64,000 nucleotides of DNA from Dokdonia pacifica (GTDB lineage: Bacteria; Bacteroidota; Bacteroidia; Flavobacteriales; Flavobacteriaceae), in NCBI RefSeq assembly GCF_900188275.1, contig NZ_FZNY01000005.1:124001-188000 (forward strand), given 5' to 3'. Below are positions 1,974 to 60,361 of the stretch, one piece after another; position 1 is the first letter of the stretch, and every line of letters starts with the position of its first letter. A program made the translations under genes and the position numbers. The notes below the pieces were generated by a model. That model was not told where the DNA came from, ran no database searches, and saw only the letters and a program-made list of their open reading frames with translations.

Positions 1974-3197
1974 ATGACAAACAAAGATCTTTTACGAGTA
2001 GTTCAGGAACATGACAGTCCTGTATATGTGTATAATGCCGAAACTATTACTAGGCAATATAAACGTTTGACTTCTGCTTTTAAAAAGGTCAAACAATTAC
2101 GATTAAACTATGCTGTAAAGGCGTTAAGCAACATTTCTGTCTTGCAACACATACATGGTTTAGGGGCAGGATTGGATACTGTTTCTATACAAGAAGTACG
2201 TCTTGGTTTAGCATCTGGATGCCCAGCAGATCGTATTATTTTTACCCCTAATGGAGTCTCTCTAGAAGAGATTGAATCTGTGTCAAAAATGGGGGTTCAA
2301 ATCAATATTGACAATTTATCAATACTTGAACAATTTGGAACCAAATATCCTAATATTCCAGTATGTATTCGTATAAATCCGCATGTGATGGCTGGAGGAA
2401 ATACTAATATTTCTGTAGGACATATTGATAGTAAATTTGGTATTAGTATTCATCAAGTACCTCATATTTTACGTATTGTCGAGAATACCAATATGAACAT
2501 TAATGGTATTCATATGCACACGGGAAGTGATATCCTAGATATTGATGTATTCTTATATGCTTCTGAAATTCTTTTTGACACAGCAAAAAACTTTCCAAAT
2601 TTAGATTTTATAGATTTTGGTAGTGGTTTTAAAGTACCCTACAAGACTGGTGATATTGAGACCAACATAGAAGAGTTAGGTGATAAATTGGGAACGCGTT
2701 TTAACGCTTTCGCGAAAGCGTATGGAAAACCTTTAACATTAACCTTTGAGCCTGGAAAATTTCTAGTAAGTGAAGCAGGGAAATTCTTGGTAAATGTAAA
2801 TGTGGTTAAGCAAACCACCTCAACCGTTTTTGCGCAAGTAGATAGTGGTTTTAACCATTTAATACGCCCAATGCTCTACGGAAGTCGTCATGAAATTCAT
2901 AACATTAGCAATCCAAATGGCCGTGAACGCTTTTATAGTGTGGTAGGATACATTTGTGAGACAGATACATTTGCAAATAATAGACGTATTGCTGAGATAA
3001 GTGAAGGTGATATTCTTGCTTTTAGTAACGCAGGGGCTTATTGTTTTACAATGGCTAGTAACTATAATAGTCGCTACCGCCCTGCTGAAGTACTCTGGAA
3101 GGATGGAGAAGCGCATTTAATACGTAAACGAGAAACTTTTGAAGACCTTCTACATAATCAAATTCCATTAAAGGAACTTGCAGAGGTCACCCAATAA
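1974..3197 (+). CDS. lysA: Diaminopimelate decarboxylase LysA
   Basis: LysA catalyses the PLP-dependent decarboxylation of meso-diaminopimelate to L-lysine, the last step of lysine synthesis, in the cytoplasm. The 407-residue protein shows the fold III decarboxylase pattern: NYAVKALSN with PLP-lysine K49, the HMHTGSD segment near 180-186, EPGK at 259-262 and the CETD active-site motif at 328-331. It has a normal length for the family. Residues 245-249 read AFAKA and are encoded by an exact copy of the iterated palindrome. The M23 gene follows 52 bp downstream on the same strand and may be co-transcribed, though the roles are unrelated. Confidence 0.95.
   Translation: MTNKDLLRVVQEHDSPVYVYNAETITRQYKRLTSAFKKVKQLRLNYAVKALSNISVLQHIHGLGAGLDTVSIQEVRLGLASGCPADRIIFTPNGVSLEEIESVSKMGVQINIDNLSILEQFGTKYPNIPVCIRINPHVMAGGNTNISVGHIDSKFGISIHQVPHILRIVENTNMNINGIHMHTGSDILDIDVFLYASEILFDTAKNFPNLDFIDFGSGFKVPYKTGDIETNIEELGDKLGTRFNAFAKAYGKPLTLTFEPGKFLVSEAGKFLVNVNVVKQTTSTVFAQVDSGFNHLIRPMLYGSRHEIHNISNPNGRERFYSVVGYICETDTFANNRRIAEISEGDILAFSNAGAYCFTMASNYNSRYRPAEVLWKDGEAHLIRKRETFEDLLHNQIPLKELAEVTQ
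2705..2720. repeat. Iterated palindrome inside lysA
   Basis: Exact core GCTTTCGCGAAAGC at 2706-2719, flanked by C and G. It is read in frame as AFAKA in LysA. Confidence 0.9.
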
Positions 3198-3249
3198 ATA
3201 ACACATCGTATAAACGTAACAAAGCGTATATTAGTTCGTCTTTTAAAAA

Positions 3250-4056
3250 ATGACTCGTATGCGCTTTGTTATAATATTATGCTTATTTCCACTTTATTGC
3301 TTTGGGCAAATACAATTAGACTTCACCAAAGAATATAAAGAAGATTCTCTTTACCTAGGAATTAAAAACAATTCTATTATTCCAATTTGGTATAAAGAAT
3401 TAAAAAGAGATACTATTGATTATAGTACACATCGCTATAAGCTTGCAGTCATGCAACCTAAGGACTCTCTATTTCCTATTGCCATTATTCCAATAAATGC
3501 TATAAAGGATACATCTGATATTGCTATCAAAGATTTCATTAATTATAGACTTGTGAAAGCAAATCCTGATGCAGTTCACGATGATTCATTTTTGTATGAG
3601 TTACCCTATGCAAAAGGAGCCCAATATGAGGTTATTCAGACATTTGGAAATTCGTTTAGTCATAACAAACCTACATCAAGATATGCCGTAGATTTTAAAA
3701 TGCCAATTGGTACTCCCCTATTTGCAATAAGAGGAGGTATTGTAATGGGTGTCGTAGAAAAATATAAAGAACATGGTGGTGAAGACTTTATAGATAAAGG
3801 CAATAATATTCTCATCTTGCATGATGATGGCACCTATGCACAATATTCACATTTAGATTATAATGGCGCCGATGTAGAGATAGGTGACGTTGTAGAACAA
3901 GGAGATTATATAGGAAAATCTGGACATACTGGTTATTCTACAAGGCCACATCTGCATCTTGTCATTAAAAATGGTGATGGTATTTCCCTTCCATTTTATT
4001 TTAAAGTACGTCCAAAGAAAAAACTTAAAAACGGAAAGAAATACATAAGAAGGTAA
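3250..4056 (+). CDS. Exported M23 family metallopeptidase (LytM-like)
   Basis: The 268-residue protein has an N-terminal signal peptide ending near CFGQ (residue 20). Its C-terminal half is an M23/lysostaphin-type domain. The zinc and catalytic residues appear as the RYAVDF segment (D148), YSHL (H201) and HLHL (H234, H236). Such enzymes cut peptide cross-links of peptidoglycan, or act as activators of amidases when degenerate; here the residues look intact. Residues 21-120 are a family-specific N-terminal region I do not recognise. It sits between lysA and a penicillin-interacting-type lipoprotein on the same strand. Confidence 0.85.
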   Translation: MTRMRFVIILCLFPLYCFGQIQLDFTKEYKEDSLYLGIKNNSIIPIWYKELKRDTIDYSTHRYKLAVMQPKDSLFPIAIIPINAIKDTSDIAIKDFINYRLVKANPDAVHDDSFLYELPYAKGAQYEVIQTFGNSFSHNKPTSRYAVDFKMPIGTPLFAIRGGIVMGVVEKYKEHGGEDFIDKGNNILILHDDGTYAQYSHLDYNGADVEIGDVVEQGDYIGKSGHTGYSTRPHLHLVIKNGDGISLPFYFKVRPKKKLKNGKKYIRR

Positions 4057-4094
4057 ATAGGTACATTGCATTTTAAAAATTAGTATTTTTAAGA

Positions 4095-5231
4095 ATGCGT
4101 ATTTCTCTTTTTATGCTCATTGCTAGTAGTTTATTTTTAGGTTCTTGTACGACACCTATAGACACTGTTTTAGAATCATCAGATCATCCAGCTATACAAA
4201 AAGTAATGGATAGCTTGGAAAACCATGAGATTCAAATCCTATATACACAGATAGATACTACAGATAAAGGTCTTATTGAGTTTACAGATTATACATTTCA
4301 AGAAAATAGAAAGCAATATTTCTATCCAGCTAGTACTGTCAAACTTCCTATTGCATTACTTGCTGCAGAATATGTAAATGAGCACCCTGAACTTCATTTA
4401 GACACACCATATATTTCTACTAGAGACTCTATATTACATAGTGTTGCAGACGATATACGGCAAATTTTCGCCGTGAGCGATAATGAAGCATATAATAGAT
4501 TATATGATATGTTAGGGAGAGATTATATAAACAAACGTCTTAAAGAACTAGACCTCTCCCCTACACGTATTGCACATCGTCTTTCTACAGGTAATGCAGC
4601 TATTCCTGAAAGAGGTACTATCAAGTTTTTCCCGTCTTATGAAGGAGAAGTTGTTGCCTTAAAAGGGCTCACTGACCAACCTATTAAGAACGTATCTATT
4701 AAAAATCAACAGAAAGGAAAAGGATATATAAAGGATGGAAATCTGATTCAAACACCTTTTGACTTTACAGAGAAGAATTATTTTCCTCTCAAATCACAAC
4801 ACACATTGATGAAACGTTTCTTTTTTGAAGATCAATTTGATCCAGATGAACGTTTTGATATCTCCTATACCGATAAAGTACGTATTCAAAAATCAATGTA
4901 TACGCTTCCGCGAAATGCAAAGTATGATGCTGAGACATATGATGATAGTTATGTAAAGTTCTTTATGTATGGAGATTCTAAAGATACAATTCCTGATCAT
5001 ATCAAAATATATAATAAAGTAGGGTATGCCTATGGCACTCTTACTGAAACTGCTTATGTCGTTGATGAAAAAGAAGAAATACAGTTTTTACTTTCTGCAA
5101 CCATACTTGTAAATGAGAATGGTATTTTTAATGATGACACCTATGAATATGATACTATAGGCATTCCATTTTTAGCGCAATTAGGTAGAGAAATTTATGA
5201 TTTAGAGAAAAGTAGAAAACAAGAAAAATGA
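4095..5231 (+). CDS. Class A beta-lactamase-like serine hydrolase lipoprotein
   Basis: The 378-residue protein has a lipoprotein signal (SLFLGSC, Cys18). The serine-hydrolase pattern is clear: STVK with nucleophile S80 and K83, then SDN at 128-130, then a KVG segment near residue 310 in the place of the usual KTG. This is the beta-lactamase-2 family (PF13354). True class A beta-lactamases are about 290 residues, so this is larger and is more likely a membrane-anchored serine hydrolase of unknown substrate than a resistance enzyme. It follows the M23 gene by 38 bp on the same strand, which makes a cell-wall role plausible. Confidence 0.75.
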   Translation: MRISLFMLIASSLFLGSCTTPIDTVLESSDHPAIQKVMDSLENHEIQILYTQIDTTDKGLIEFTDYTFQENRKQYFYPASTVKLPIALLAAEYVNEHPELHLDTPYISTRDSILHSVADDIRQIFAVSDNEAYNRLYDMLGRDYINKRLKELDLSPTRIAHRLSTGNAAIPERGTIKFFPSYEGEVVALKGLTDQPIKNVSIKNQQKGKGYIKDGNLIQTPFDFTEKNYFPLKSQHTLMKRFFFEDQFDPDERFDISYTDKVRIQKSMYTLPRNAKYDAETYDDSYVKFFMYGDSKDTIPDHIKIYNKVGYAYGTLTETAYVVDEKEEIQFLLSATILVNENGIFNDDTYEYDTIGIPFLAQLGREIYDLEKSRKQEK

Positions 5232-7301: not shown

Positions 7302-8252
7302 ATGAAAAAAATTACACTTTTGGCATCTTTAACTGCCTTAACAGCATTTGGACAACAACCAACAACAGCATCTGAGTACGTACAAATAAATTTAGACAAT
7401 ACGCAATTACAGACAACTTCGATTAGATCTCACACTAGTGCTTCTAGATTTCAGACAGAAAATATAACATTATTTGAAACTAGAGAAGCATTTTTAGACA
7501 ACTGTGCTGATGGTGAATTTCTAACTTTTGAGGATTTTGAAGGGTTTACAGGAGGTCCAGATGACTCTGTAGAAGCATGCAGTACTATAATTGATTCTTC
7601 TGGAGATAATTGTTTCCTTGAAGGAGAAATACAAGAAGGAGTTTCTTTTACTAGCAGTGCTGGCAATATGGTATTTTTTAATGAGGGATCATTTGGAGTA
7701 GAAAACCCAGGTGTAGGTGCAGATGTTTTCTCATCATTCACTATTATAAACTTTACTGCAGCTAGTTCTATTACTAGTGTAGGTTTTGATTTATACTCTC
7801 CTTTAGGAGATGGAGGACCTATTGAAGCTAGAGTATTTGGAGAAACTGGACTTATAGAAGCGGTTACCTTTGATGTTGGATCTACTGCATTTTTTGTAGG
7901 TATTGTTGCAGATGAACCGATTGTACAAATAGAATTAGAAAATCCTGAAGGTGTCATTATAGAGCTTGTTACTCAATTCTATTTTGGAAATTGTGAAGCT
8001 CTTAATATAGAAGAAAATACTTTTGGAAATTTTAATTTCTTTCCTAATCCAACTCAAAATGAAGTAACGATTAGTTCAACAATAGCAGTAGAAAAGATTT
8101 CCATCTATAACCTTTTAGGACAAAAGGTTAAATCACAAACGGTTAATTCAACCACCTCAAATATAGATGTTTCTAATTTAAAAACAGGAGTTTACATTCT
8201 TGAAGTGACTTCAAATGGCCAAATAGGTGCATTTAAAATGATTAAAGAATAA
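7302..8252 (+). CDS. T9SS-secreted protein of unknown function
   Basis: The 316-residue protein has a short signal peptide (MKKITLLASL, cleavage near FGQ at 18). A central acidic region of about 180 residues is followed by a type A T9SS sorting domain (FFPNPTQNEV onward, about residues 243-316), ending in a hydrophobic-basic tail. The central region may be a beta-sandwich of the kind found in environmental lipid- or sugar-binding domains, but I recognise no catalytic motif. It is a monocistronic unit with its own terminator at 8315-8352. Confidence 0.75.
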   Translation: MKKITLLASLTALTAFGQQPTTASEYVQINLDNTQLQTTSIRSHTSASRFQTENITLFETREAFLDNCADGEFLTFEDFEGFTGGPDDSVEACSTIIDSSGDNCFLEGEIQEGVSFTSSAGNMVFFNEGSFGVENPGVGADVFSSFTIINFTAASSITSVGFDLYSPLGDGGPIEARVFGETGLIEAVTFDVGSTAFFVGIVADEPIVQIELENPEGVIIELVTQFYFGNCEALNIEENTFGNFNFFPNPTQNEVTISSTIAVEKISIYNLLGQKVKSQTVNSTTSNIDVSNLKTGVYILEVTSNGQIGAFKMIKE

Positions 8253-8563: not shown

Positions 8564-8580
8564 CGCTTTCGCGAAAGCAT
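8564..8580. repeat. Iterated palindrome, intergenic
   Basis: Exact core GCTTTCGCGAAAGC at 8565-8578, in the gap between the 7302 gene and the M57 gene, just beyond the M57 terminator. Confidence 0.9.
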
Positions 8581-15728: not shown

Positions 15729-15748
15729 TACGCTTTCGCGAAAGCGTA
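15729..15748. repeat. Iterated palindrome, intergenic (full 20-mer)
   Basis: Exact TACGCTTTCGCGAAAGCGTA between lrp and the convergent M36 gene. The surrounding 70 bp resemble 18812-18897 beyond the second M36 gene. Confidence 0.9.
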
Positions 15749-18821: not shown

Positions 18822-18839
18822 GCGCTTTCGTGAAAGCAC
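18822..18839. repeat. Degenerate iterated palindrome
   Basis: CGCTTTCGTGAAAGCA at 18823-18838 differs from the consensus at one core base. It is the counterpart of the copy at 15729 in the duplicated flank. Confidence 0.75.
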
Positions 18840-22169: not shown

Positions 22170-22235
22170 TACGCTTTAACGCTATGCTCTCCCTTTTGGT
22201 CGTGAATCTCGCAAGCTCGATTTCGCGAAAGCGTA
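22170..22235 (-). repeat. Long composite form of the iterated palindrome
   Basis: Read on the minus strand this 66-bp copy starts TACGCTTTCGCGAAA, has the shared middle TTCACGACCAAAAGGGAGA and ends TTAAAGCGTA. It aligns with 58433-58499 and 60297-60361. Confidence 0.85.
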
Positions 22236-24765: not shown

Positions 24766-26381
24766 TATTGTTTTATCAGCTTTTGTGTTGTAGATCGTTC
24801 TGAATCTTGTATCTGTATAATGTATACTCCTGAAGTAAGTGTGTGTACATCAATGCTATTATTAGTTTTAGATATTTCTTTTGATAGCACGCGTTTCCCT
24901 AATAAATCATAGACCAATATTCTTGCCTGTGAGCTTCCTTCTGGAAACTGTACTTGAAAAATACTATTGGCAGGATTAGGTGATACGGTATACGCTTTCG
25001 CGAAAGCGGACTCCTCTACACTTAATACAAATGCATTAAATGCATCTTCAAAATTAGGGATCCCATATCCCATCTGTGGTGTAGGAGCATTAAATAAATG
25101 TGCCGACTCACGTACAAATTGCATAATCTCTGCATTGGTACGTTCTGGAAAAGCTTGCCATAAACTGGTTACAGCACCAGCCATAATAGGCGAACTAAAG
25201 CTTGTACCATTACTAGTATCTATATTTCCGTTAGGTGTAATTACAGCACTACTCTGTCCTTTTGCCATCACATCTGGCTTTACACGGCCATCACTAGAAG
25301 GGCCAATACTGCTAAAACTTACATAGTTTCCATTACTGTTTACAGCCCCTACGGTAAGAACCCCTGGAGCATCAGCTGGAGCACCAATCATACCTGTACC
25401 TGAATTTCCTGCACTGGTTACGAGTAGCATTCCTTTTTCAAAAGCAATATTAGAGCCTCTAGAAATAAAAGCAGTTTGCCCATTCATATCCTCATACGTA
25501 TAACTATATGCTGGATTATCATAACCTCGATAGCCTAATGATGTATTAATCACATCTACACCTAAACTATCGGCACGTTCGGCGGCTTCTACCCAGTACG
25601 ATTCTTCTACAGGGTTTTCACTGTTAACATCTTCTGTTCGGAAACAGTATAAAAAAGCATCTGGAGCTGTTCCCACAAATTGATCTTCAATAAAACCAAC
25701 AATATCACTAGCGGTACGTGTACCATGACTACTACTAGAAAATGCAAATTCATCATCTACACGATCTACAAAATCGTATCCATCTAATAAACGTCCATTA
25801 TCACGTACTCTTGCAAAACCTGCATTGGTATCTATACCTGGAAAACCAGAATCTAATACTGCAACAATCATCCCTGCACCCGTAAAATCTTGTTGGTGTA
25901 AAAAATCTGCACTCAGCATAGTCACTTGATTTTCGGTAGCACCATAGGTATAATCTACACGTTGTTGATTAACATCTTCAGGATCACCTTTTACAAAACC
26001 AAACCCCTCTGAGGATCTAGTAAGACTATCATCTGCAAACTCAATACTATCTACAAATTGTAGCGCTTCTAATGCATCTATCGCTTCTTGTGAACCTCGT
26101 ACATGTACACAATTAAACCATTTTGATTTGGCTAATACGATAATACCTGTTTGCGCTTTTACTTGAGAGATATACGATTCGTTTACAGGAACATCACGCT
26201 CATCTATTGCTACGCCATGCATTTCTTTTCTATCGATTGCTTCTTGTGTAAGAATGCTTATAGGATTTGCAATACTTTCGGATACGTTTTCTTTATCGAC
26301 AAAAAATACCCACGCATCTTCGTCTTGTGCAAACGTAATAAAGGGAATTAGTAGGAATACCCAGTGTAGTCGTTTTTTCAT
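24765..26381 (-). CDS. Secreted subtilisin-like (S8) serine protease with T9SS sorting domain
   Basis: The 538-residue protein has a signal peptide (cleavage near FAQ, 19), an I9-like prodomain up to about residue 150, and an S8 domain with the triad D177 (AVLDSG), H219 (SHGTR) and S394 (GTSFSSP), plus oxyanion N326 (AGNSG). A type A T9SS sorting domain follows (VSPNPANS onward, about 466-538). The linker between protease and sorting domain carries AFAKA at 459-463, encoded by an exact iterated palindrome. Secreted broad protease is a safe inference; substrate is not known. Confidence 0.92.
   Translation of the reverse strand: MKKRLHWVFLLIPFITFAQDEDAWVFFVDKENVSESIANPISILTQEAIDRKEMHGVAIDERDVPVNESYISQVKAQTGIIVLAKSKWFNCVHVRGSQEAIDALEALQFVDSIEFADDSLTRSSEGFGFVKGDPEDVNQQRVDYTYGATENQVTMLSADFLHQQDFTGAGMIVAVLDSGFPGIDTNAGFARVRDNGRLLDGYDFVDRVDDEFAFSSSSHGTRTASDIVGFIEDQFVGTAPDAFLYCFRTEDVNSENPVEESYWVEAAERADSLGVDVINTSLGYRGYDNPAYSYTYEDMNGQTAFISRGSNIAFEKGMLLVTSAGNSGTGMIGAPADAPGVLTVGAVNSNGNYVSFSSIGPSSDGRVKPDVMAKGQSSAVITPNGNIDTSNGTSFSSPIMAGAVTSLWQAFPERTNAEIMQFVRESAHLFNAPTPQMGYGIPNFEDAFNAFVLSVEESAFAKAYTVSPNPANSIFQVQFPEGSSQARILVYDLLGKRVLSKEISKTNNSIDVHTLTSGVYIIQIQDSERSTTQKLIKQ
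24992..25008. repeat. Iterated palindrome inside the S8 protease gene
   Basis: Exact core GCTTTCGCGAAAGC at 24994-25007, read as AFAKA in the linker before the T9SS sorting domain. Confidence 0.9.
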
Positions 26382-26461: not shown

Positions 26462-27655
26462 TTACGAAATAACTCCGGAACCTAAACAAGAATCTCCATC
26501 ATACCAAGCTACAAATTGTCCTTCGGCGATAGCTGTTTGTGGATGATCAAAAATCACATACAGACCTCCTTCTACTCGATATAAAGTTGCCTTTTCTAGA
26601 GGTTGTCTATAACGTATACGCGCTTCAACCTCCATGGTTTCGTCTACCGCGAGTGTTAAATCTTCTCGTATCCAGTGGATTTCTTCTTCTCTCACAAAGA
26701 GTCCTTTACGATATAACCCAGGATGGCTTTTCCCTTGGCCTGTATAAATTACATTTTCTTTTACATCGGTTTCAATGACAAATAAAGGCTCAGCAGTTCC
26801 TCCTACAGCAAGTCCTTTACGTTGTCCTTTTGTGAAGTAATGGGCGCCTTGATGTTTTGCAACAACTTTACCATCTGTAATCGTATACACTGGTTTTTCT
26901 GCAAGTTGAGCTAAATCTGCTTTCGCGAAAGCATTGCTAGCTACATCTTCACCTACCATCTGTGGGACAGCTTCTTTAGGAATTTCAACAATTACCCCTT
27001 CTTTAGGGCGTAATTGCTGTTGTAAAAAATCAGGAAGACGCACTTTACCAATAAAACAAAGCCCTTGTGAATCTTTCTTTCCTGCCGTCACTAGGTCTTG
27101 CGCTAATGCAATCTCACGTACCTGCGGTTTTTGAAGGTGTCCAATAGGGAATAGTGTTTTTGCCAATTGATCTTGCGATAATTGACATAAGAAGTACGAC
27201 TGATCTTTATTAGGGTCGGCTCCTGCTAGTAATTGATGTATTTCTTTACCATCTTTAGTAATGGTTTCTTTCTGGCAATAATGCCCCGTAGCCACATAAT
27301 CTGCTCCTAAGCTTAAGGCAATTTTCATAAATACATCAAACTTAATCTCACGATTACAAAGCACATCGGGATTAGGTGTACGTCCCATTTCGTACTCCTT
27401 AAACATATAATTGACAATACGTTCTTTATACTCTTCACTTAGATCTACTGTTTGAAAAGGAATCCCTAGTTTATTAGCAACAAGCATCGCATCATTACTG
27501 TCATCTAGCCATGGACACTCATCTGAAATGGTCACTGAATCATCATGCCAATTTTTCATAAAAAGACCAATAACACGATACCCCTGCTCTTTTAATAAAT
27601 AAGCGGCAACACTACTATCTACACCTCCACTAAGACCTACAACTACTGTTTTCAT
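26462..27655 (-). CDS. mnmA: tRNA 2-thiouridylase MnmA
   Basis: MnmA uses ATP and persulfide sulfur to thiolate U34 of tRNA-Lys, -Glu and -Gln. The PP-loop SGGVDSS follows the start directly ([15 protein letters not shown]). The catalytic cysteines are in NPDVLCN and GLCFIGK. The length, 397 residues, is normal. I chose ATG 27655; an upstream in-frame ATG at 27724 would add 23 residues with no family similarity. An exact iterated palindrome encodes AFAKA at residues 242-246, and another copy lies 71 bp upstream of the start. Confidence 0.95.
26919..26932. repeat. Iterated palindrome inside mnmA
   Basis: Exact core GCTTTCGCGAAAGC, read as AFAKA (residues 242-246 of MnmA). Confidence 0.9.
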
Positions 27656-27725: not shown

Positions 27726-27749
27726 TATACGCTTTCGCGAAAGCGTATA
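27726..27749. repeat. Iterated palindrome, intergenic, perfect over 24 bp
   Basis: The 20-mer TACGCTTTCGCGAAAGCGTA is extended by TA on both sides. It lies 71 bp before the mnmA ATG. Confidence 0.9.
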
Positions 27750-35890: not shown

Positions 35891-35908
35891 TCGCTTTTGC
35901 GAAAGTAG
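35891..35908. repeat. Degenerate iterated palindrome between pyrG and yidC
   Basis: TCGCTTTTGCGAAAGTAG keeps most of the core with one C to T change and lost outer pairing. It lies just before the yidC start. Confidence 0.5.
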
Positions 35909-35967: not shown

Positions 35968-37605
<1,638 letters not shown>

Positions 37606-39328: not shown

Positions 39329-39350
39329 ATACGCTTTCGCGAAAGCGGTA
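39329..39350. repeat. Iterated palindrome, intergenic, in the ychF leader
   Basis: Exact core GCTTTCGCGAAAGC at 39333-39346, extended on one side to TATAC. It is close to the ychF start codon. Confidence 0.9.
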
Positions 39351-40896: not shown

Positions 40897-41727
40897 TTAT
40901 TCTTTTTTAAGAACTCGGTCTATGGCATCTGTATATGCTGGAAATATAACTAGGTCATTATGACCCCCTTCAGGAATCGTAATAAATTCTTTTGATGAAG
41001 TCGTCACTTTCTCAAATAGTTTCTGCCCGTGTTCATAAGCTACAACGGCATCTTCAGTTCCATGAAATACTGTAATAGGACAAGAAACGGATCCTATAAA
41101 TGTGTATGTCGGCATTTTATATTTTAATAACCGTTTTACAGGAAGCCATTTAAAACGCGAACTCGCCTCATCTTCTATACTGTAAAATGGGGTTTCTAAT
41201 GTAAGGTTTTTAGGATTGTTTTTACTGGCTACATAAGTGGCAAATGTGGTTCCTAAGCTTCTACCGTACACATGAATTTGTGATTCTGGATAGTTCGCTT
41301 TCGCGAAAGCATACCATACCTCACTATCGGTATATAAAGCCTGTTCTGGGCTCGGAACCTTTTCCTTAGCATCCCCACTTTTACCATAATTGCGATAATC
41401 CATCACAATCACCGAATATCCTTTTTTTGTAAAAAAACTGGTAATTTCTCCCCAACGTCTTACACTACCGGCATTACCGTGATAATATAAAATGACACCT
41501 TTGGCATCTACTACAGGAAAATGGAGCCCGTGTAGTTGAGCACCTCCTTCTCCTTCTTGATATACTTCTTCAAAAGGAGCATCAAATTCAAAAACATAAT
41601 CTTTAGGTAACTGCTCTGGGTGAAATAGCATACTCTCCTGAAAGAAGTAAAGACCACCACATAAAATTGCATAAATATTTCCCAAAACAAACAGCAGGAT
41701 TGCTCCCCTTTTTAGTGTACGCTTCAT
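40897..41727 (-). CDS. Membrane-anchored alpha/beta hydrolase, copy A
   Basis: The 276-residue protein has an N-terminal membrane segment (about 8-29) and an alpha/beta hydrolase domain of the ABHD13/17-like (BAAT-type serine aminopeptidase) group. The oxyanion motif YYHGNAGS (82-89), nucleophile elbow GRSLG (S157), acid region HGTEDAV and the late His in GGHNDL are present. Residues 140-144 read AFAKA, from an exact iterated palindrome. A paralogue at 42764-43633 aligns without gaps across this place. The two flank a pair of double-glycine-leader peptide genes. Substrate unknown. Confidence 0.85.
   Translation of the reverse strand: MKRTLKRGAILLFVLGNIYAILCGGLYFFQESMLFHPEQLPKDYVFEFDAPFEEVYQEGEGGAQLHGLHFPVVDAKGVILYYHGNAGSVRRWGEITSFFTKKGYSVIVMDYRNYGKSGDAKEKVPSPEQALYTDSEVWYAFAKANYPESQIHVYGRSLGTTFATYVASKNNPKNLTLETPFYSIEDEASSRFKWLPVKRLLKYKMPTYTFIGSVSCPITVFHGTEDAVVAYEHGQKLFEKVTTSSKEFITIPEGGHNDLVIFPAYTDAIDRVLKKE
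41296..41310. repeat. Iterated palindrome inside hydrolase A
   Basis: Exact core GCTTTCGCGAAAGC at 41297-41310, read as AFAKA at residues 140-144. Confidence 0.92.
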
Positions 41728-43690: not shown

Positions 43691-43710
43691 TACGCTTTCG
43701 CGAAAGCGTA
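43691..43710. repeat. Iterated palindrome, intergenic (full 20-mer)
   Basis: Exact TACGCTTTCGCGAAAGCGTA, about 58 bp before the hydrolase B ATG. Confidence 0.92.
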
Positions 43711-47039: not shown

Positions 47040-48548
47040 ATTCTGAATCTTTTTGAACATATCAAAAAATACCCTGTTCTTACCATTTCAATAGGACTCT
47101 TACTACTTTTTGCAGGATTTGTTTTTATAGATACTGCTGGATTTTACAATCATATAGAAAGTGCATCACTTTGGGTTAGAAAATGGTTTGGTCATTTTTA
47201 TCTCTATTTAGGATTATTCTGTGTGCTTTTTATTCTAGGATTAGCACTCTCCCCTTTCGGGAAACAAAAATTAGGCAGTAAAGAAGATACGCCTGAATTT
47301 TCGCGTTGGGCATGGATTGCTATGTTATACAGTGCAGGAATGGGTGCAGGAATTTTACTCCGTGCTGTACAGGAGCCTGTATTTATGCAACAACATCCAC
47401 CTATTCAAACGGGTGCTTCGCCAGATATCATTGCATTAGAATATACCTTTTACCAATGGGGTTTTACTGCTTGGGCATTTTATGGTCTCTTTGCACTAAT
47501 TATAGGGTATTACCTATTTACACAAAAACGATCGGCGCTTGTAAGCGCTTCTATTCAAAGTATTACCAAACACAAACTTCCTAGGCACGGCATTGATATA
47601 CTAGCTACGTTTACCACTGTTTTTGGACTTGTAGGTGCTGTTGGACTGGGAACTACACAAATTAATGGAGGCCTTAATCATATTACCCAAGGTGATTTTG
47701 GACTTTGGACTACTATTGGTATTACACTGTGTATTGCTATTCTTGCCTTTGTATCTGTTTGGAAAGGGATGCATAAAGGAATCAAACGCATCTCTACACT
47801 TAATATTTGGATGACACTCGCTATTCTTATCTATGTGTTTGTACAAAGTGATATGGTAGCAGTTGTATACGCTTTCGCGAAAGCGGTCACACATTACATC
47901 AAAGATTTTGTCCAACTGAGTCTTGCCGTTGGAGCCTATGACCCTGAAGAGGCTTTCTTAACTGATTGGACGTATTATTATTGGGCATTTTGGCTCGCAT
48001 GGGCTCCGTTTACAGGGATTTTTATTGCTCGTATTTCTCGAGGACGCACCATACGCGAACTCTTACTGGGTGTCTTAATCATTCCGGCGATGGGTACATT
48101 TTTTTGGTTTAGTGTCTTTGGGGATAGTGCATTTACGATCATAGAAAATTGGGGCGCCTATAACAACGAGTTTGGGTATGTATTTTCTTCCATTTTTGTA
48201 TTTTTTGAAAACTATCCGTTTGCAAGTATACTCAATGTGATTACGATAATTTTACTAGTGAGTTTTTTAGTCACTTCGGTAGACTCGGCTGTATTTGTAT
48301 TAAGCATGTTTACCGATAAAGGAAACCCAAACCCTAAACGCAGACACCGATTGATTTGGTCTGTAGGCATTGCTTTATTTGCTATTGCAATGATTGTATT
48401 AGGTAATGCTCGTCCGGAAATCAATGTATTGGTAGCATTGCAAAAATTATTGATTATTACTTCCCTCCCATTTGCTTTATTTATGGTCGTGATGGTGATG
48501 GTGTTTGTGAGGGATATAGTTCGGAAGAAAAAAGTATCCTATCTTTAG
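47040..48548 (+). CDS. BCCT family (betaine/choline/carnitine) transporter, start uncertain
   Basis: The product is a 12-helix sodium-coupled transporter of compatible solutes. The signature is complete: AGMGAGILLRAVQEP in helix 3, and DWTYYYWAFWLAWAPFTGIFIARISRGRT in the conserved middle region. The frame is open from 47031 but has no ATG. The first GTG (47223) would remove helix 1, so translation must begin at a non-standard codon (ATT 47040 or CTG 47043) or a frameshift lies upstream. An exact iterated palindrome at 47871-47884 encodes AFAKA in a loop between helices. Function call strong; start weak. Confidence 0.85.
   Translation: MLNLFEHIKKYPVLTISIGLLLLFAGFVFIDTAGFYNHIESASLWVRKWFGHFYLYLGLFCVLFILGLALSPFGKQKLGSKEDTPEFSRWAWIAMLYSAGMGAGILLRAVQEPVFMQQHPPIQTGASPDIIALEYTFYQWGFTAWAFYGLFALIIGYYLFTQKRSALVSASIQSITKHKLPRHGIDILATFTTVFGLVGAVGLGTTQINGGLNHITQGDFGLWTTIGITLCIAILAFVSVWKGMHKGIKRISTLNIWMTLAILIYVFVQSDMVAVVYAFAKAVTHYIKDFVQLSLAVGAYDPEEAFLTDWTYYYWAFWLAWAPFTGIFIARISRGRTIRELLLGVLIIPAMGTFFWFSVFGDSAFTIIENWGAYNNEFGYVFSSIFVFFENYPFASILNVITIILLVSFLVTSVDSAVFVLSMFTDKGNPNPKRRHRLIWSVGIALFAIAMIVLGNARPEINVLVALQKLLIITSLPFALFMVVMVMVFVRDIVRKKKVSYL
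47868..47886. repeat. Iterated palindrome inside the BCCT gene
   Basis: Exact core GCTTTCGCGAAAGC at 47871-47884, read as AFAKA in a VVYAFAKAVTHY context. Confidence 0.92.
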
Positions 48549-51399: not shown

Positions 51400-51411
51400 A
51401 ACCTAAAGATC

Positions 51412-53464: not shown

Positions 53465-53488
53465 TATACGCTTTCGCGAAAGCGTATA
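53465..53488. repeat. Iterated palindrome, intergenic, perfect over 24 bp
   Basis: The 20-mer TACGCTTTCGCGAAAGCGTA extended by TA on both sides, between the amidohydrolase and CPBP genes. Confidence 0.92.
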
Positions 53489-54869: not shown

Positions 54870-54947
54870 AATTCAACCAATTAACAAAATATTGATTTTT
54901 TCAATCTTTTTTAAAAGCTACTTTAGGCGCTAGCTAAAACCAATCTC

Positions 54948-55895
54948 ATGACCAAAGAACTATTGCTAAGTTATACGGTATACCTTCTTGTCATTACTTT
55001 TTCATTCGGTCAATCTAAGAATGATTATACCACATATCATCAAAGTGTATTAGACATAGAACAAGAAATCATTACTGAAAAATACAGTGACGCCCTTTTC
55101 ATGTACGAACAATTATTTGAAACATATGACTTCATATTTTTGAGAGACTATAAGATTGCAAGTCAGCTAGCAGCGTACACAAAAAACAAAGAGAAAACAC
55201 TTGCATATATTGAATTAGGGATACAAGGAGGATGGTCTTTAAAATCTATTAAGAAACATACACTTTTTAAAGAATACCTTTCAAAAGAAGATTGGAAAAT
55301 CATCAAAAGGAAATCCCCTTCTCTTGTAGCTATATATGAACATAAACTCAACAAAGAAGTACAAGCGCAAGTCAAAAAAATGTCTGCTAAAGATCAGTGG
55401 AAAGCGTTGAAAGCGCTGTTTCGATTTAGTGACAAAGCGCAAACCCGATATTCCGAAAATAAATTTGCGCCTCATAGCGAGCAACAAATGGCAAAACTTA
55501 TGGATATCATAGCTAATCATGGGTATCCTGGAGAAAAACTAGTTGGTAAAGGATATTGGATGTCTACAATTATTAGTCACCATAACTCTATATCTACTAC
55601 TTATAATCAAAAGGATACACTGTATCTATCGTTAATTCCAAAACTTAAAGAAGCCATTCAAGATGGGAGTCTCTCTCCATATCAATTTGCTATTATAGAT
55701 GATTGGTACTTGACATCTTTAAATGATGATTCAAAACCAAATTATGGAATTATAAGACCGCCTTCTCCAGAACATGTATCTAAGACAAATGCTCCAAGAG
55801 CTGCTATTGGTATACGTACAATAGCGCTAAGAGACTCATTACTAACTGTTGAAGATAAAACAGGAATTCGCCTATATATTACAGATATATGGTAA
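54948..55895 (+). CDS. Exported DUF6624-like protein
   Basis: The 315-residue protein has a signal peptide (cleavage near SFGQ, residue 22). The N-terminal half is helical and TPR-like (EKYSDALFMYEQLFETYDFI). The C-terminal half resembles DUF6624, with SLIPKLKEAIQDGSLSPYQF and AIIDDWYL. No catalytic motif. Function unknown; a role as a surface or periplasmic scaffold is possible. Confidence 0.65.
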   Translation: MTKELLLSYTVYLLVITFSFGQSKNDYTTYHQSVLDIEQEIITEKYSDALFMYEQLFETYDFIFLRDYKIASQLAAYTKNKEKTLAYIELGIQGGWSLKSIKKHTLFKEYLSKEDWKIIKRKSPSLVAIYEHKLNKEVQAQVKKMSAKDQWKALKALFRFSDKAQTRYSENKFAPHSEQQMAKLMDIIANHGYPGEKLVGKGYWMSTIISHHNSISTTYNQKDTLYLSLIPKLKEAIQDGSLSPYQFAIIDDWYLTSLNDDSKPNYGIIRPPSPEHVSKTNAPRAAIGIRTIALRDSLLTVEDKTGIRLYITDIW

Positions 55896-56008
55896 ACAAA
55901 ACATGCAAGACCTTGTTAATTATGTTAAATCAATCTAAATACGGCTCATAAAAGTTCATCTAGGCGCTATCTTTATAAGTAGAATTATAACGTAATAAAG
56001 TAATAGCT

Positions 56009-58420
56009 ATGATGAAAACTAACTACCTATTCGCCGCGTTTTTTTTACTTTCCCTCTCTTTAAGTTTTACTAGTTTTTCTCAAAACATAACACAAAGAGG
56101 TCCAAATAATCCAGGAGTTCCAACAATAGTACAGGTATCTGCAAAAGACTCTCTATATGTAATGAGAGAACATGTTGTATTACAACTAGCGAATGAACAA
56201 ATAAACAATGATCTCTTATTTTTCAAAGCATATCTTTTAACAGGGCCACAACAAAACAGATACAGTAACAGTCGTGTATTACATATTGAACTCCAAGATA
56301 CAGATGGAACTACGGTTAAAAAGCAATTTCATGAAATTGTAAACGGAATGGTAGCGGGTAATATCATAGTACCTAAACGAACAAAAGAAGGAAATTATAC
56401 GGTAAAAGCATACACACAGTGGATGAAGAATTATAGTGACACTCCGTATACCCAAAAGCACATACAAATTGGAGATGCATTTGATGATACTAACATTGCT
56501 CCCAAAAATACAATTACCATTCTTCCAGAGGGAGGGACCTTCTTACAAGGGTATAAAAATAAAATAGCATTTCAGATACCATCTCAACTTGTGAGCAATG
56601 ATGGTACACTTGGAACAATCATAGATAGTCAGGATAATACGATTATCAAAGTACAGGACTATGATGCTGGTTCAGGTATTGCATTTTTAGAACCTAAAAA
56701 TGGGGAACGCTATTTTTTAAAATTAGACAATGGCACCACCTATCCCTTACCTAACAGTGAAGACCAAGGTCATCTATTACGTATTAATAATATAGCACCT
56801 GCTATTGCTAGTATTCAAGTAGTACGTACTGAAAAAGCACAAAAAACACCACTCAAACTTGTGGGAACACTTCGAGGTGTACCCTATTTTGAGAAGAAAA
56901 TCAATTTCACTAAAAATAGTGCAGATATAAAACTAGATAAAGAAAAAATACCAAGAGGTATCTTACAACTTCAATTGATTGATTTAGAAGGAAATTTAAT
57001 AGCCAAAAGACCTATTTGGATAGAAGGACAATCCCTACAAATCACAATGGATCAAGTCGCTTCTACTGACAATGAAGTTACATATAAAGTAAAAGTGACC
57101 GATCAAAAAAATAAGCCTGTAAAAACTGAAGTAGCACTTAGTATTATTTCTGAAGGAGATAAAAGTACTAGCATAAAAGAAACCGATCTCTTTTCTTCAC
57201 TATCCCAAGAACGCAATGCTACCACAGAAAGGAATAGACGCTTTTTACAAGATATGAGAGTGCTTATTGCACATCAAGATAATGGCACAGAAGCTTCTAT
57301 AATGACAGATAATATAACATATCCTATTCAAAAAGGACTTCGTGTAATAGGATACGCTTATGATCTTAATAATAAACTATTAATCAATACACCCGTTCAA
57401 GTGATGTTTACCAATGAAAATGGTATTTCTATCGAAGAGACGACCACAGATGCAAACGGGGTTTTAAGAGTAGATAATATTCAGATTGATGGAGAAACAA
57501 CACTCGTATGTAGAACCAAAGCTGATGATACAAAATCCAGATTGGTACAATTAGAACGTATTGAAGATGCTTTTTATGTAGATCCTGAAAAAGAAAAGGC
57601 AAGAATAAAAGAAGCAAAAAGAGGTTCAAAGAAAGAACGTAATGTATCTCAAGAAGAAAAAGAACTTGCTGTAAAACCATTTGATACTTCAGGAACGCTT
57701 GTTTTATATGAAGTACCATTAACTGGGAAAAAAACAAAAGAAGCACCTCCAACAGAAACACCTTCTGTGTATGGCGTAAAGCCACCTAAGCACCGAATAA
57801 TATACCAAGATCCTGATAAACCAAAGCAAGTTGGCGAATTACTATTAAGAATTCCTGGCGTTATTGTTTCTGGCCTCGGTGATATATCTCCTACTGTTTC
57901 TATTCCTCGTGCATCTGGCTCTCCGTTATTTGTAGTAGACGGGTTTCCTATCACACAAGCAAGTAATGGTTTTGGCAATTCATTTACTGGCGGTATTTTA
58001 TCAAGTGCCCCAAGATCAAATTTAAATGACCTTCTAGCCGTGGTAAATTATTCGGATATCCAACGTATTGAAGTGTTGATTGGTCCAGACGCTGCTATTT
58101 ATGGCTCTAGAGGCGCTGGAGGAGTAATTGCTGTATATACGCGTTTTGCAGAAGATACTTTTATTCCTAGAAAAAATGCGCAACTTGAGTTTCAGGGATA
58201 TGAACCTGTAGTTGCTTTTGAAGAATACCAACAAAACCTTTCTAAAAGAGAACGTGAAAATGCTGCTGTACTTTACTGGAATCCATCTATAGAAACCAAT
58301 GAAAACGGCGAGGCAATGATTACCTTACCTATCACGGATACTACAAAACCACTGAAAGTAAAAGCCACCACCATTAATCAAAAAGGCAACGTGGGTATAC
58401 TACAGACCTCACTTAACTAA
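56009..58420 (+). CDS. Exported macroglobulin-like protein with C-terminal TonB plug domain, no barrel
   Basis: The 803-residue protein has a signal peptide (to about residue 25, SFSQ). Residues 40-560 contain MG2-like macroglobulin beta-domains (for example SKDSLYVMREHVVLQLANE, and the mid repeats). Residues about 610-710 are a TonB-dependent receptor plug (IPGVIVSGLGDISPTVSIP, SPLFVVDGFPI, IQRIEVLIGPDAAIYGSRGAGGVIAVYT). There is no beta-barrel after the plug; the protein ends with another macroglobulin-type strand (NGEAMITLPITD). This arrangement is known in Bacteroidota but its function is not established. It might gate or interact with an outer-membrane partner. Confidence 0.8.
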   Translation: MMKTNYLFAAFFLLSLSLSFTSFSQNITQRGPNNPGVPTIVQVSAKDSLYVMREHVVLQLANEQINNDLLFFKAYLLTGPQQNRYSNSRVLHIELQDTDGTTVKKQFHEIVNGMVAGNIIVPKRTKEGNYTVKAYTQWMKNYSDTPYTQKHIQIGDAFDDTNIAPKNTITILPEGGTFLQGYKNKIAFQIPSQLVSNDGTLGTIIDSQDNTIIKVQDYDAGSGIAFLEPKNGERYFLKLDNGTTYPLPNSEDQGHLLRINNIAPAIASIQVVRTEKAQKTPLKLVGTLRGVPYFEKKINFTKNSADIKLDKEKIPRGILQLQLIDLEGNLIAKRPIWIEGQSLQITMDQVASTDNEVTYKVKVTDQKNKPVKTEVALSIISEGDKSTSIKETDLFSSLSQERNATTERNRRFLQDMRVLIAHQDNGTEASIMTDNITYPIQKGLRVIGYAYDLNNKLLINTPVQVMFTNENGISIEETTTDANGVLRVDNIQIDGETTLVCRTKADDTKSRLVQLERIEDAFYVDPEKEKARIKEAKRGSKKERNVSQEEKELAVKPFDTSGTLVLYEVPLTGKKTKEAPPTETPSVYGVKPPKHRIIYQDPDKPKQVGELLLRIPGVIVSGLGDISPTVSIPRASGSPLFVVDGFPITQASNGFGNSFTGGILSSAPRSNLNDLLAVVNYSDIQRIEVLIGPDAAIYGSRGAGGVIAVYTRFAEDTFIPRKNAQLEFQGYEPVVAFEEYQQNLSKRERENAAVLYWNPSIETNENGEAMITLPITDTTKPLKVKATTINQKGNVGILQTSLN

Positions 58421-58432
58421 TATGTTTCTGGG

Positions 58433-58499
58433 TACGCTTTCGCGAAAGCGTAGATAGGAAATTCACGACCAAAAAGGGAGAATGAAATGGTAAAGCATA
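58433..58499 (+). repeat. Long composite form of the iterated palindrome
   Basis: The 20-mer palindrome at 58433-58452 is followed by a conserved half (TTCACGACCAAAAAGGGAG, then AATGAAATGGTAAAGC) ending 58499. It aligns with 60297-60361 and with the inverse of 22170-22235; all start TACGCTTT and end AAAGCRTA. It lies just past the TonB-plug gene. Confidence 0.9.
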
Positions 58500-58537
58500 C
58501 AGAAAAATCATAAATAAATAATATTATTTTTTTATTC

Positions 58538-58558
58538 CTAACCGATTGTTTAGTTTTG
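58538..58558 (+). promoter_or_regulatory. tetR operator overlapping its -7 box
   Basis: CTAACCGATTGTTTAG (58538-58553), inverse half-sites around GATT with one mismatch. TAGTTTTG (58551-58558) fits TAnnTTTG. The operator thus covers the -7 element, which fits autorepression. Confidence 0.78.
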
Positions 58559-58576
58559 TATTGTTTTTGAAACCCT

Positions 58577-59140
58577 ATGGCTAGAAAAAAAGAATATAAC
58601 GAAGACGAAGTTATTGAAAAAGCAATGCGCCTATTCTGGCGTAATGGCTATGAAACGACTTCTATGCAGATGCTTGAAAAAGAAATGGGTATTAATAAAT
58701 TTTCTATTTATTCTAGTTTCGGAAGTAAAAATGGAGTCTTTTTAGAGAGTATTAAATGCTACAAGAAAAAACTAAACGATATTTTAATTCCTTTAAAAAA
58801 TACAACCAATGGCGTAGAAGGTTTAAAGCAATACTTTTATGATTTCATAGCTTTTTCTAAAGATGAGCATTTTGGAAAAGGGTGTTTAATTACGAATGCT
58901 GCCAATGAACTACAGGAAGATGCAGATCCAGAAATCAAAGCTGAACTCAGAAAGTTTACAGCCGAAATTAGAAATCAGTTTGCGCTAGCGCTACAAAAAG
59001 AGAAAAACCAAGATCCTAACACCATTGAAAAAAAGGCAGACTATTTTATTATCTCCATGTTTGGACTTGCCTCGGCATCTAGAGTATTTCAAAAAAGCCA
59101 ATTAGACAACTATATCGAAAACATATTTACAAACAGTTAA
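58577..59140 (+). CDS. TetR/AcrR family transcriptional regulator
   Basis: The 187-residue protein has the N-terminal TetR helix-turn-helix (DEVIEKAMRLFWRNGYETTSMQMLEKEMGINKFSIYSSFGSKNGVF, about 7-52) and a C-terminal ligand domain of the kind found in YxaF/TetR_C-like regulators. It is a repressor with an unknown ligand. It should bind the palindromes at 58538 (its own promoter) and 59159 (before the AhpD-like gene), which share CTAAC/CTAAAC-GATT-GTTTAG. Confidence 0.92.
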   Translation: MARKKEYNEDEVIEKAMRLFWRNGYETTSMQMLEKEMGINKFSIYSSFGSKNGVFLESIKCYKKKLNDILIPLKNTTNGVEGLKQYFYDFIAFSKDEHFGKGCLITNAANELQEDADPEIKAELRKFTAEIRNQFALALQKEKNQDPNTIEKKADYFIISMFGLASASRVFQKSQLDNYIENIFTNS

Positions 59141-59158
59141 TATTTTTTTAACCCATAA

Positions 59159-59174
59159 CTAAACGATTGTTTAG
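59159..59174 (+). promoter_or_regulatory. TetR operator before the AhpD-like gene
   Basis: Perfect palindrome CTAAACGATTGTTTAG with a GATT centre (the centre itself is not symmetric), 15 of 16 bases equal to the operator at 58538. Confidence 0.8.
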
Positions 59175-59210
59175 CTATTTTACAAACATAAATTACAAAT
59201 AAAAAAAAGC

Positions 59211-59759
59211 ATGAGTACATTAACAATTCACACTATCGAAACCGCTCCAGAAGAGAGCAAAGAATCTTTAAAAAATTCGGTTAAATCATTTGGGATGCTT
59301 CCTAATTTACACGGAGTTTTATCAGGATCACCCGCATTACTAGAGGTGTATAAAACTACACATCAGTTATTTTCAAACTCTTCATTTAATGCCGAAGAAC
59401 TCACTGTAGTATGGCAAACCATAAATGTAGAACACGAATGTCATTACTGTGTTCCTGCACATACAGCTATCGCACATATGATGAAAGTAGACCCTGCCTT
59501 AACAGAAGCCTTACGTAATGGAGAGGCAATGCCTACCGAAAAATTACAGGTATTACAAGACACTGTATTGAGCATTGTTAGAAATCGCGGTCATATTAGC
59601 GATGCAGAATTAGAAACATTTTATGCGCAAGGGTATGGTCAAAGACAAGTATTAGATATCATTTTAGGTGTTTCTCAGAAGGTAATTAGTAATTACACCA
59701 ATCATATTGCTAATACCCCTGTAGATGAACCTTTCCAAAAGTTTGCATGGACTAAATAA
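59211..59759 (+). CDS. AhpD/carboxymuconolactone decarboxylase-family protein
   Basis: The 182-residue protein has the AhpD active-site pattern: EHECHYCVPAH with C77 and C80, and H84, in the position of the CxxC thiol pair of alkylhydroperoxidase AhpD. A C-terminal helix bundle follows. Expected activity is peroxide reduction or a related thiol reaction. It is controlled by the adjacent TetR regulator judging from the shared operator, 51 bp before the start. A toxic organic compound or peroxide response is likely but not shown. Terminator at 59785-59820. Confidence 0.88.
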   Translation: MSTLTIHTIETAPEESKESLKNSVKSFGMLPNLHGVLSGSPALLEVYKTTHQLFSNSSFNAEELTVVWQTINVEHECHYCVPAHTAIAHMMKVDPALTEALRNGEAMPTEKLQVLQDTVLSIVRNRGHISDAELETFYAQGYGQRQVLDIILGVSQKVISNYTNHIANTPVDEPFQKFAWTK

Positions 59760-59784
59760 TTTCCTCAAGTCATATTTTATATAC

Positions 59785-59820
59785 AAAAGCAGTTGAAGAA
59801 ATAATCTTCAACTGCTTTTT
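59785..59820 (+). terminator. Terminator of the AhpD-like gene
   Basis: 15-bp stem AAAAGCAGTTGAAGA/TCTTCAACTGCTTTT with a 5-base loop and T-run. Confidence 0.9.
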
Positions 59821-59863
59821 CTTTTAAATGTTTATCTTGAAAATGAATTAATAACTTTAGACT

Positions 59864-60280
59864 TTGTTGAAAGCCATATTTTTTACTTTATTGCTAGTGC
59901 TTTTTTTTAGTTGTCAATCAAGTGACACTAAGGGATTAAAATTCGTCGCATTAGAGGCTTCAGGTAAATCAATTAATACCAGTTATGACTTCTGTTCTGT
60001 CGTAGCGATAAAACATGAATACTCTTACAGAATAAATACATGGGAATTTATAGTCAATGATTCTATCAAAATAGCAGAAGGTCCTTATATAAATACATTA
60101 GTTACTATTGATGATCATGGCGGATGTCCATATTCTTTTTTCACAGATTCAATAGCTATCGAAAAATGGTCGTTTTGGGATTTAAAAGGAAATCGTATTC
60201 CACCTAATCAAAGACTAAAAAATATCATTACCTCTAAAGACACGCTATGGGCTATGATAGATTTAAGTGACTCGCTTTGA
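59864..60280 (+). CDS. Small lipoprotein of unknown function
   Basis: The 138-residue product has a lipoprotein signal (LLVLFFSC, Cys17). The start is a TTG (59864, directly followed by a second TTG); no in-frame ATG would give the signal peptide. The mature part has no recognised domain and contains two further Cys (DFCSV and GGCPY), which may pair in the periplasm. It is followed by a long copy of the iterated palindrome. Confidence 0.6.
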   Translation: MLKAIFFTLLLVLFFSCQSSDTKGLKFVALEASGKSINTSYDFCSVVAIKHEYSYRINTWEFIVNDSIKIAEGPYINTLVTIDDHGGCPYSFFTDSIAIEKWSFWDLKGNRIPPNQRLKNIITSKDTLWAMIDLSDSL

Positions 60281-60296
60281 ATAAAACTTTTCTGGG

Positions 60297-60361
60297 TACG
60301 CTTTCGCGAAAGCGTACTTACAAGACTCACAACTGGAGAGAGAATGAAATGGTAAAGCGTA
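60297..60361 (+). repeat. Long composite form of the iterated palindrome
   Basis: The 20-mer at 60297-60316, then a partly conserved half (CTCACAACTGGAGAGAGAAT, GAAATGGTAAAGCG) ending at 60361. It aligns with 58433-58499 including a short shared flank (TTTCTGGG) on the left. Confidence 0.9.

Follow-up and report, generated by a model that had tools for sequence, protein, structure and literature searches.

The 14-letter palindrome GCTTTCGCGAAAGC occurs 903 times in the 5.52 Mb genome of Dokdonia pacifica—the reversed control occurs 0 times—and 14 exact copies lie within the window, the whole stretch of 64,000 nt analyzed here. We assign a probability of roughly 0.55 to the reading that it belongs to a new genome-wide punctuation system of Bacteroidota. 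Such a system would have a dimeric reader that is specific to the clade and covers about 60 bp, an exact 14-bp palindrome at near-regular steps of 4–5 kb, and genus dialects. Its sites would either serve self-recognition in DNA uptake without a type IV pilus, as the first palindromic sequence to do so, or meter chromosome folding or recombination. The sequence-only reading knew of no described family with this sequence, and the literature search found none: the 14-mer was not found, and the 10-mer TTTCGCGAAA appears only in texts of no apparent relevance as judged by their titles and abstract openings. The genome-wide occurrence that it expected is borne out, the count being neither near random nor confined to the window, and the copies lie within and between genes, not bound to one operon.

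All 14 positions reported for the window were confirmed, and the count is, as claimed, far above chance: 17 copies at up to two mismatches compared with a mean of 0.05 in dinucleotide shuffles (Table 1). Four degenerate copies had also been proposed, three of which are real, with corrected starts. The fourth, at 31497, is rejected, because the best match there has six mismatches; the hairpin followed by a T run at this position is probably a terminator. Depending on the copy, the palindrome stays perfect over 14–28 bp in all, and the 20-mer palindrome named earlier occurs six times in the window.

Table 1. Copies of the palindrome in the window (no strand assigned)
Position	Copy	Context	Orthologous loci
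2706..2719	exact core	inside lysA (1974-3197 +)	exact in G008, one base off in G006
8565..8578	exact core	between convergent ORFs 7302-8252 and 8647-9555	
15732..15745	exact core, 20-bp palindrome	between convergent ORFs	
18824..18837	one mismatch	intergenic	
22219..22232	one mismatch	intergenic	
24994..25007	exact core	in T9SS-sorted subtilase-like protease ORF (24765-26381 -)	same-place core in 8/16 aligned
26919..26932	exact core	in mnmA (26462-27724 -), variable stretch	exact in 12/16 aligned Dokdonia orthologues
27731..27744	exact core, 28-bp palindrome	6 bp upstream of mnmA ORF as called	
35893..35906	two mismatches	intergenic	
36374..36387	exact core	in pyrG (35968-37584 -)	
39333..39346	exact core	intergenic, upstream of YchF-type GTPase ORF (38210-39304 -)	
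41297..41310	exact core	in alpha/beta hydrolase ORF (40897-41727 -)	
43694..43707	exact core, 20-bp palindrome	between divergent ORFs	
47871..47884	exact core	in BCCT transporter ORF (47223-48548 +)	
53470..53483	exact core, 24-bp palindrome	past stop of ORF 51850-53412	
58436..58449	exact core, 20-bp palindrome	15 bp past stop of ORF 56009-58420	
60300..60313	exact core, 22-bp palindrome	19 bp past stop of ORF 59864-60280	

All 18 Dokdonia genomes carry the palindrome (369–905 copies each), and two further genera, here called g26 and g206, carry hundreds of copies, bringing the carrier genomes identified to 22. In nearly all related genera sampled, it is absent or rare: 317 of the 397 family genomes counted have zero copies, and 74 have 1–19. 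The low-copy clusters examined outside the carrier genera look like transferred metal-efflux cassettes; as a watermark, the palindrome may trace such cassettes moving between genera. A scan of IMG/VR yielded at least 80 loci with the palindrome, 76 of the matches listed having a single copy, and one Nonlabens phage, a test of little weight, lacks the palindrome even with two mismatches allowed. A screen of 79 named non-Dokdonia loci of relatives (4.7–21 kb) for 10- and 12-mers with at least three copies and at least two G/C gave no comparable iterated palindrome: four loci feature one repeated word each, the highest being CAATATATTG with six copies. This clade restriction, together with the site avoidance, the extended flanks, and the dialects described below, goes beyond what the sequence-only reading had noted.

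In one relative, a 400 kb stretch contains 116 exact copies, 13 with one mismatch, and 13 with two; shuffled palindromes (up to 30) give means of 0, 0, and 0.7. The whole genome of G016 contains 899 exact copies and 1112 at up to two mismatches; in g206 (408 exact and 732 at up to two mismatches), the scarcity of near misses is less marked than elsewhere. Between species whose overall identity is 91–94%, the core is 99.5–100% identical, and close species keep it at 25/26, 25/29, 21/21, and 21/23 aligned sites; the survival expected for 14 unconstrained bases, computed from the species-pair identities, is about 25% and 40%. Divergence as a function of nearness to a site gives a mixed picture with no clear drop near sites. 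The tight hold on each of approximately 900 redundant sites is more in keeping with a transmission drive than with a need at the level of the organism. The half-site GCGAAAGC, a stable DNA mini-hairpin, was rejected as the unit: it is hardly enriched alone (23 compared with 17.7 expected outside the core in the G016 samples).

As judged from the alignments, the palindrome sites are selected and not inserted. Repeated insertion of a mobile palindromic element, either REP/RAYT-like or of the Rickettsia type, would account for the many near-identical copies and for their enrichment between genes (117 of 207 sites lie in ORFs, although ORF coverage is 90%); the 117 copies within ORFs in turn speak against it. 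REP/BIME and Rickettsia palindromic elements, the parallel drawn earlier, are likewise interspersed palindromes. The present sites differ from them in being exact, in changing by substitution instead of insertion, and in having no constant arms, the flank profile featuring no constant sequence outside the 14-bp core. All seven site differences in two close species pairs are ungapped substitutions of one or two bases, the site-free alleles having no gap, so that insertion as a mobile element, and with it the earlier parallel, is not supported. Gapped alignments at 3 of 12 alignable sites (G006 versus G016) and 1 of 3 (G000 versus G016) in distant pairs decide neither way. The mobile-element explanation is largely refuted, and we give it next to no weight.

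Biased flanks with symmetric preferences extend to about 25 bp on each side of the core, and the symmetric footprint is near 60 bp overall. On both strands, the 5′ flank is poor in C and rich in G and T as far as about −25. Intergenic flanks favor T at −4, −7, −10, and −13 with a period-3 component above background, and periods 5, 6, 7, and 10.5 are raised too for some bases. The dialect is visible in the commonest triplet before the core: TAC in Dokdonia and TCC in g26, with g206 being mixed. All five palindrome RNAs that were folded form a hairpin. A long-armed hairpin or cruciform is rejected, as left–right complementarity matches what base composition gives, with z of 2.0–2.4, positive or negative, at single positions. 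An intrinsic terminator is disfavored as well: the 3′ side is A/C-rich by flank profile and not a stem with a U tract, and terminator-like calls at palindrome sites within 45000–64000 number 0/4.

The sites avoid one another within 1–2 kb in three genomes (G016, G273, and G222). Under a null model of one site per gene, 28 intervals shorter than 1 kb are expected in G016, G006, and the window pooled, and 8 are found; the corresponding numbers are 1 compared with 12.2 in g26 and 0 compared with 5.2 in g206. The spacing in g26 has a CV of 0.44 compared with 0.89 expected. In the window's own genome, a stretch of 400 kb shows no avoidance (7 short intervals compared with 7.8; CV 0.92 compared with 0.89) and includes a site-free gap of 33 kb.

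In its behavior, the palindrome is most like a DNA-uptake sequence, yet palindromic and longer. It may mark self-DNA throughout the genome, in the way that uptake sequences do in Neisseriaceae and Pasteurellaceae—a reading that we hold tentatively, at somewhat less than even odds. Shared with these DUS/USS are hundreds to thousands of near-exact copies in coding and intergenic DNA, gain and loss by point change, genus dialects, a flank preference, and strong over-representation with few near-miss variants (weaker in g206). Whereas DUS/USS have a short nonpalindromic core of 9–12 bp, the present core is palindromic and invariant over 14 bp, with about 60 bp in all, and its hosts are Flavobacteriaceae. 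Since the copies are letter-perfect and often near-evenly spaced, a protein reader is probable. A putative dedicated receptor, probably dimeric, would favor DNA fragments bearing the site; homologous recombination of the favored fragments would repair mutated sites and would likewise spread new ones where protein or regulatory sequence tolerates them. A single site per incoming fragment would suffice, which would lead to spacing between sites. The lack of avoidance in the 400 kb stretch described above and the mixed divergence pattern around sites count against this reading.

The ComEC and DprA families, which the uptake reading calls for, are present in 24/24 genomes, but in the 16 carriers and 8 noncarriers alike. 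PF00482 (T2SSF), which marks type IV pilus or type II machinery, is missing in 7/12 Dokdonia, 2/3 g26, and 1/1 g206, that is, in 10/16 carriers tested—a further difference from DUS/USS. A ComP-like pilin reader is therefore unlikely in those genomes, and the type IV pilus as the uptake route across all carriers is rejected. In published work, the kingDUS count of Neisseriaceae grows by 21% once one mismatch is allowed (PMC3630211), and uptake sequences are, like the present sites, over-represented in noncoding DNA compared with expectation, originate by change of pre-existing sequence, and have no orientation bias (PMC1939737). Riemerella columbina, of the same family, prefers its own DNA; the k-mers listed in that study are all A/T-rich and at most 10 bp long, with no such palindrome among them (PMC7965970).

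The main rival to the uptake reading is a nucleoid or chromosome-organizing site, on which a clade-specific dimeric DNA-binding protein would sit every 4–5 kb and fold, anchor, or insulate the chromosome; this appears somewhat less likely than uptake. It is consistent with a palindrome of symmetric footprint, with the near-regular spacing in g26, with the preference of the sites for intergenic and convergent regions, and with the result of the replichore check suggested earlier, in which no trend is visible along one complete genome (20 samples). However, the restriction to few genera, the strong constraint on each of hundreds of redundant sites, and the irregular spacing, gap included, in the 400 kb stretch of D. 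pacifica would not be expected. ParB, a known candidate, is no different in carriers. The parS/NBS sites are palindromes with a TTTC..GAAA arrangement, which the Dokdonia palindrome shares; it differs from them in its hundreds of sites, in an inner gap that is 2 bp shorter, and in an unchanged ParB in Dokdonia and g206. A ParB/Noc reader is rejected, as neither a dedicated ParB paralogue nor an altered HTH marks the carriers: TIGR00180 has one match in 14/16 carriers and two in 2/16 (22/24 and 2/24 in noncarriers), and the HTH region is alike by eye in the 11 carriers and 13 noncarriers aligned; in g26, two residues differ, with GKSRSA in place of GKNRST or GKKRST.

It is improbable that the palindrome is a bidirectional Chi-like signal, to which an end-processing enzyme would respond from either side and leave a G/T-rich 3′ strand for RecA. 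Chi has about one site per 4–5 kb, a density that is matched here; the copy number is within the range for E. coli Chi, and the C-poor, G/T-rich 5′ flanks with their T positions and period-3 component would fit. Known Chi sites, in contrast, are short and asymmetric, the Dokdonia site being palindromic and much longer, and regular spacing would be unexpected. Even less credible is that the palindrome, in the manner of HIP1, is a by-product of DNA methyltransferase activity at an inner word, for example, TCGCGA or CGCG. HIP1 of cyanobacteria (GCGATCGC) is a fair parallel in kind, being a highly iterated palindrome, lineage-wide and far above expectation; the present palindrome has another sequence, is longer, and features site avoidance in three genomes. 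Orphan methylases have been linked to HIP1 (PMC4390886), and outside the core, TCGCGA reaches 1.04–1.32 times and TTCGCGAA 1.2–4.5 times expectation (three genomes, counts 4–39). However, CGCG outside the core is at 0.76–0.83 of expectation, the unit spans 14 bp and has long flanks, and the carriers have no consistent methylase of the two families tested: PF00145 (C5 methylases) is absent in 7/12 Dokdonia, and PF01555 is over the cut-off in 0/12 Dokdonia, 1/3 g26, and 1/1 g206. Both are rejected as the reader, not being universal in carriers, and the methylation signal considered earlier is unsupported for them. The sequence-only interpretation is borne out in part: it is right as to a genome-wide repeat comparable in kind to HIP1, and unsupported as to REP/Rickettsia insertion and these methylases.

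Few genome-wide iterated motifs have, to our knowledge, a known reader; because this palindrome is exact, clade-restricted, and dialect-bearing, its reader should be findable. We know of no bacterial precedent for near-regular spacing of specific chromosomal sites, which, if the palindrome meters the chromosome, would apparently be new for bacteria. If it marks self-DNA for uptake, it would show how DNA is chosen by Bacteroidota that lack pili.

The palindrome GCTTTCGCGAAAGC occurs 903 times in the genome of the window, in which a reversed control word is absent. The 14 exact copies that the sequence-only reading had reported for the window are all found where it had placed them. Its degenerate copies are real in three instances, with corrected starts, and the remaining one—at 31497—is a different hairpin (see table). 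The genus was recognized through mnmA, whose coordinates in genome G011 (C1:174376–175590) coincide with those of the mnmA match on the Dokdonia sinensis contig NZ_REFV01000001.1 (L182). Every one of 18 Dokdonia genomes carries 369 to 905 copies, and none is found in 21 comparison genomes outside Dokdonia. A sample of 397 genomes of the family features hundreds of copies in 6, 1 to 19 in 74, and none in 317. The six are two Dokdonia genomes, three of a second genus, g26 (578, 664, and 609 copies), and one of a third, g206. The latter genome has 408 exact copies and 732 at up to two mismatches; near-copies are more frequent here, as if the system were weaker or decaying. Of 395 genomes drawn from the phylum as a whole, the window's own is the sole one with more than six copies.

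The core is sharply defined: 400 kb of the Dokdonia genome G016 hold 116 exact sites and 13 with one mismatch, and shuffled palindromes average zero for both. In 86% of half-sites, the base directly before the core is C. The triplet before the core bears a dialect—most commonly TAC in Dokdonia and TCC in g26, with g206 mixed. In the flanks, C but not G or T is scarce as far out as about −25; past −30, base composition is close to normal. Intergenic flanks of Dokdonia favor T at −4, −7, −10, and −13, a preference that is stronger in g26. A period of 3 is above background there for A and T in both genera and for G in g26; since periods of 5, 6, 7, and 10.5 are also raised for some bases, no single period is relied on. 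Left and right flanks are no more complementary than composition predicts. From the sequence, we infer a symmetric protein complex that would cover about 60 bp of double-stranded DNA.

Placement was judged on 764 kb (G016, the window, and orthologous stretches of G006 and G008) with mechanically called ORFs. ORFs make up 90% of the sample yet contain only 117 of the 207 sites; intergenic DNA is approximately sevenfold denser in sites than ORFs, and convergent gaps are approximately twice as dense as other gaps. Between codirectional genes, 27 of 47 sites start no more than 22 bp from a stop codon. No intrinsic terminator signature was seen at the sites, though the RNA would fold. Within genes, the reading frame AFAKA prevails (71/117).

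The sites avoid each other, with a 400 kb stretch of the genome of the window counting against this. The first 100 sites of G016 have a coefficient of variation (CV) of 0.74 versus 0.98 expected, with 4 intervals below 1 kb versus 23. Pooling G016, G006, and the window under a one-site-per-gene-or-gap null (1000 simulations) yields 8 such intervals versus 28, the simulated minimum being 14. In 400 kb of g26, the values are 1 versus 12.2, with a CV of 0.44 versus 0.89 and a largest gap of 10.4 kb; in g206, 0 versus 5.2 (CV 0.71 versus 0.90); and in 120 kb of G006 alone, 1 versus 3.7 (p 0.07). The 400 kb from the genome of the window show no avoidance (7 versus 7.8; CV 0.92 versus 0.89). Even spacing is also a trait of uptake sequences.

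Locations of individual features (window positions unless a genome is named)
Location	Feature	Reading
18824	Start of degenerate copy	Real
22219	Start of degenerate copy	Real
35893	Start of degenerate copy	Real
31490–31530	Hairpin GAGTACGCTTTCTTAAGCGTACTC, then A and T9	Probably a terminator, no palindrome copy
G016:C1:300001–320000 (L006)	Open reading frame of 4957 codons or more; one site only in this 20 kb sample, which lies at the two largest gaps within the first 100 G016 sites	Probably a giant surface protein
G000:C21:1–400000 (L378–L397), window's own genome	Site-free gaps of 33, 16, and 15 kb	Possibly acquired islands

Sites turn over by point mutation. Among sites that align in species pairs 91% and 94% identical, 25/26, 25/29, 21/21, and 21/23 have the exact core; one more did not align. 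Each of the seven that differ does so by one or two ungapped substitutions. Core identity is 0.995 and 1.000 versus 0.92 and 0.94 for flanks 4 to 26 bp away. Of 16 Dokdonia mnmA orthologues aligned, 12 have the internal site exact, with varying bases on either side; the other four carry a stretch of equal length (two) or a longer one (two). In distant pairs, most sites fail to align, and four lie in gapped alignments, which carry no weight either way.

A dedicated reader seems needed: the motif has a length and exactness that would be unusual in a methylase by-product, and neither of the two methylase families examined (PF00145 and PF01555) is universal in carriers. ParB is unlikely to be this reader: its copy number is the same and its HTH much alike in carriers and noncarriers. 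The argument weighed most is the strong upkeep of each of approximately 900 redundant sites, which favors transmission bias, since this explains the upkeep without each site being needed for survival. The exact core, turnover by point change, placement driven by tolerance, enrichment between genes, and dialect match published traits of uptake sequences (PMC1939737 and PMC3630211), and a member of the Flavobacteriaceae prefers its own DNA (PMC7965970). Unlike known uptake sequences, the Dokdonia motif is a palindrome. T2SSF (PF00482), a marker of type IV pilus/type II machinery, is missing from 7 of 12 Dokdonia genomes tested, so that the known uptake route is unavailable in these; T2SSF genes have a patchy distribution among Dokdonia and g26 genomes (G000, G004, G013, G015, G017, and G273). 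All 24 genomes tested have the ComEC and DprA families, which hence do not discriminate carriers. The palindrome may instead serve the nucleoid or recombination.

In a single-gene ParB tree, g26 stands apart from Dokdonia, and the branches with good support require the carrier label to change at least twice; a single-gene ComEC tree places palindrome-free genera between them with moderate support only. Given this apparent separation, the reader may have moved between lineages or been lost, and transfer or loss may have shaped the palindrome's history. Clusters taken from six low-copy genomes, each of a different genus (L286–L294), cover 24 of the 35 copies in these genomes. Six of eight site-bearing ORFs scanned score above cut-off for heavy-metal efflux families (RND pumps, P-type ATPases, and an adaptor); the others are one TolC-like below cut-off and one weak Fur-like match. 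The ATPases are of copper and zinc/cadmium type. One stretch, in which two copies are separated by 933 bp, is 94 to 97% identical across three low-copy genomes of three genera. Across the clusters, the commonest outer triplet is TCC, like in g26. By sequence, the clusters look like transferred cassettes bearing their source's watermark, apparently moved recently. Intermediate genomes—G108 and G318 (g92), G176 (g160), G083 (g67), and G085 (g69)—have up to 19 exact copies and 38 to 86 at up to two mismatches versus 5 to 20 for a control; transfers, relics, or a weak system are suggested alternatives.

A literature search found nothing on GCTTTCGCGAAAGC. Iterated genome motifs are already known as a kind; what is new here is that a palindrome of such length and exactness, spaced near-regularly and showing a dialect, occurs in a few genera of Flavobacteriaceae. 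It may be categorically new if its reader proves unrelated to uptake or methylation.
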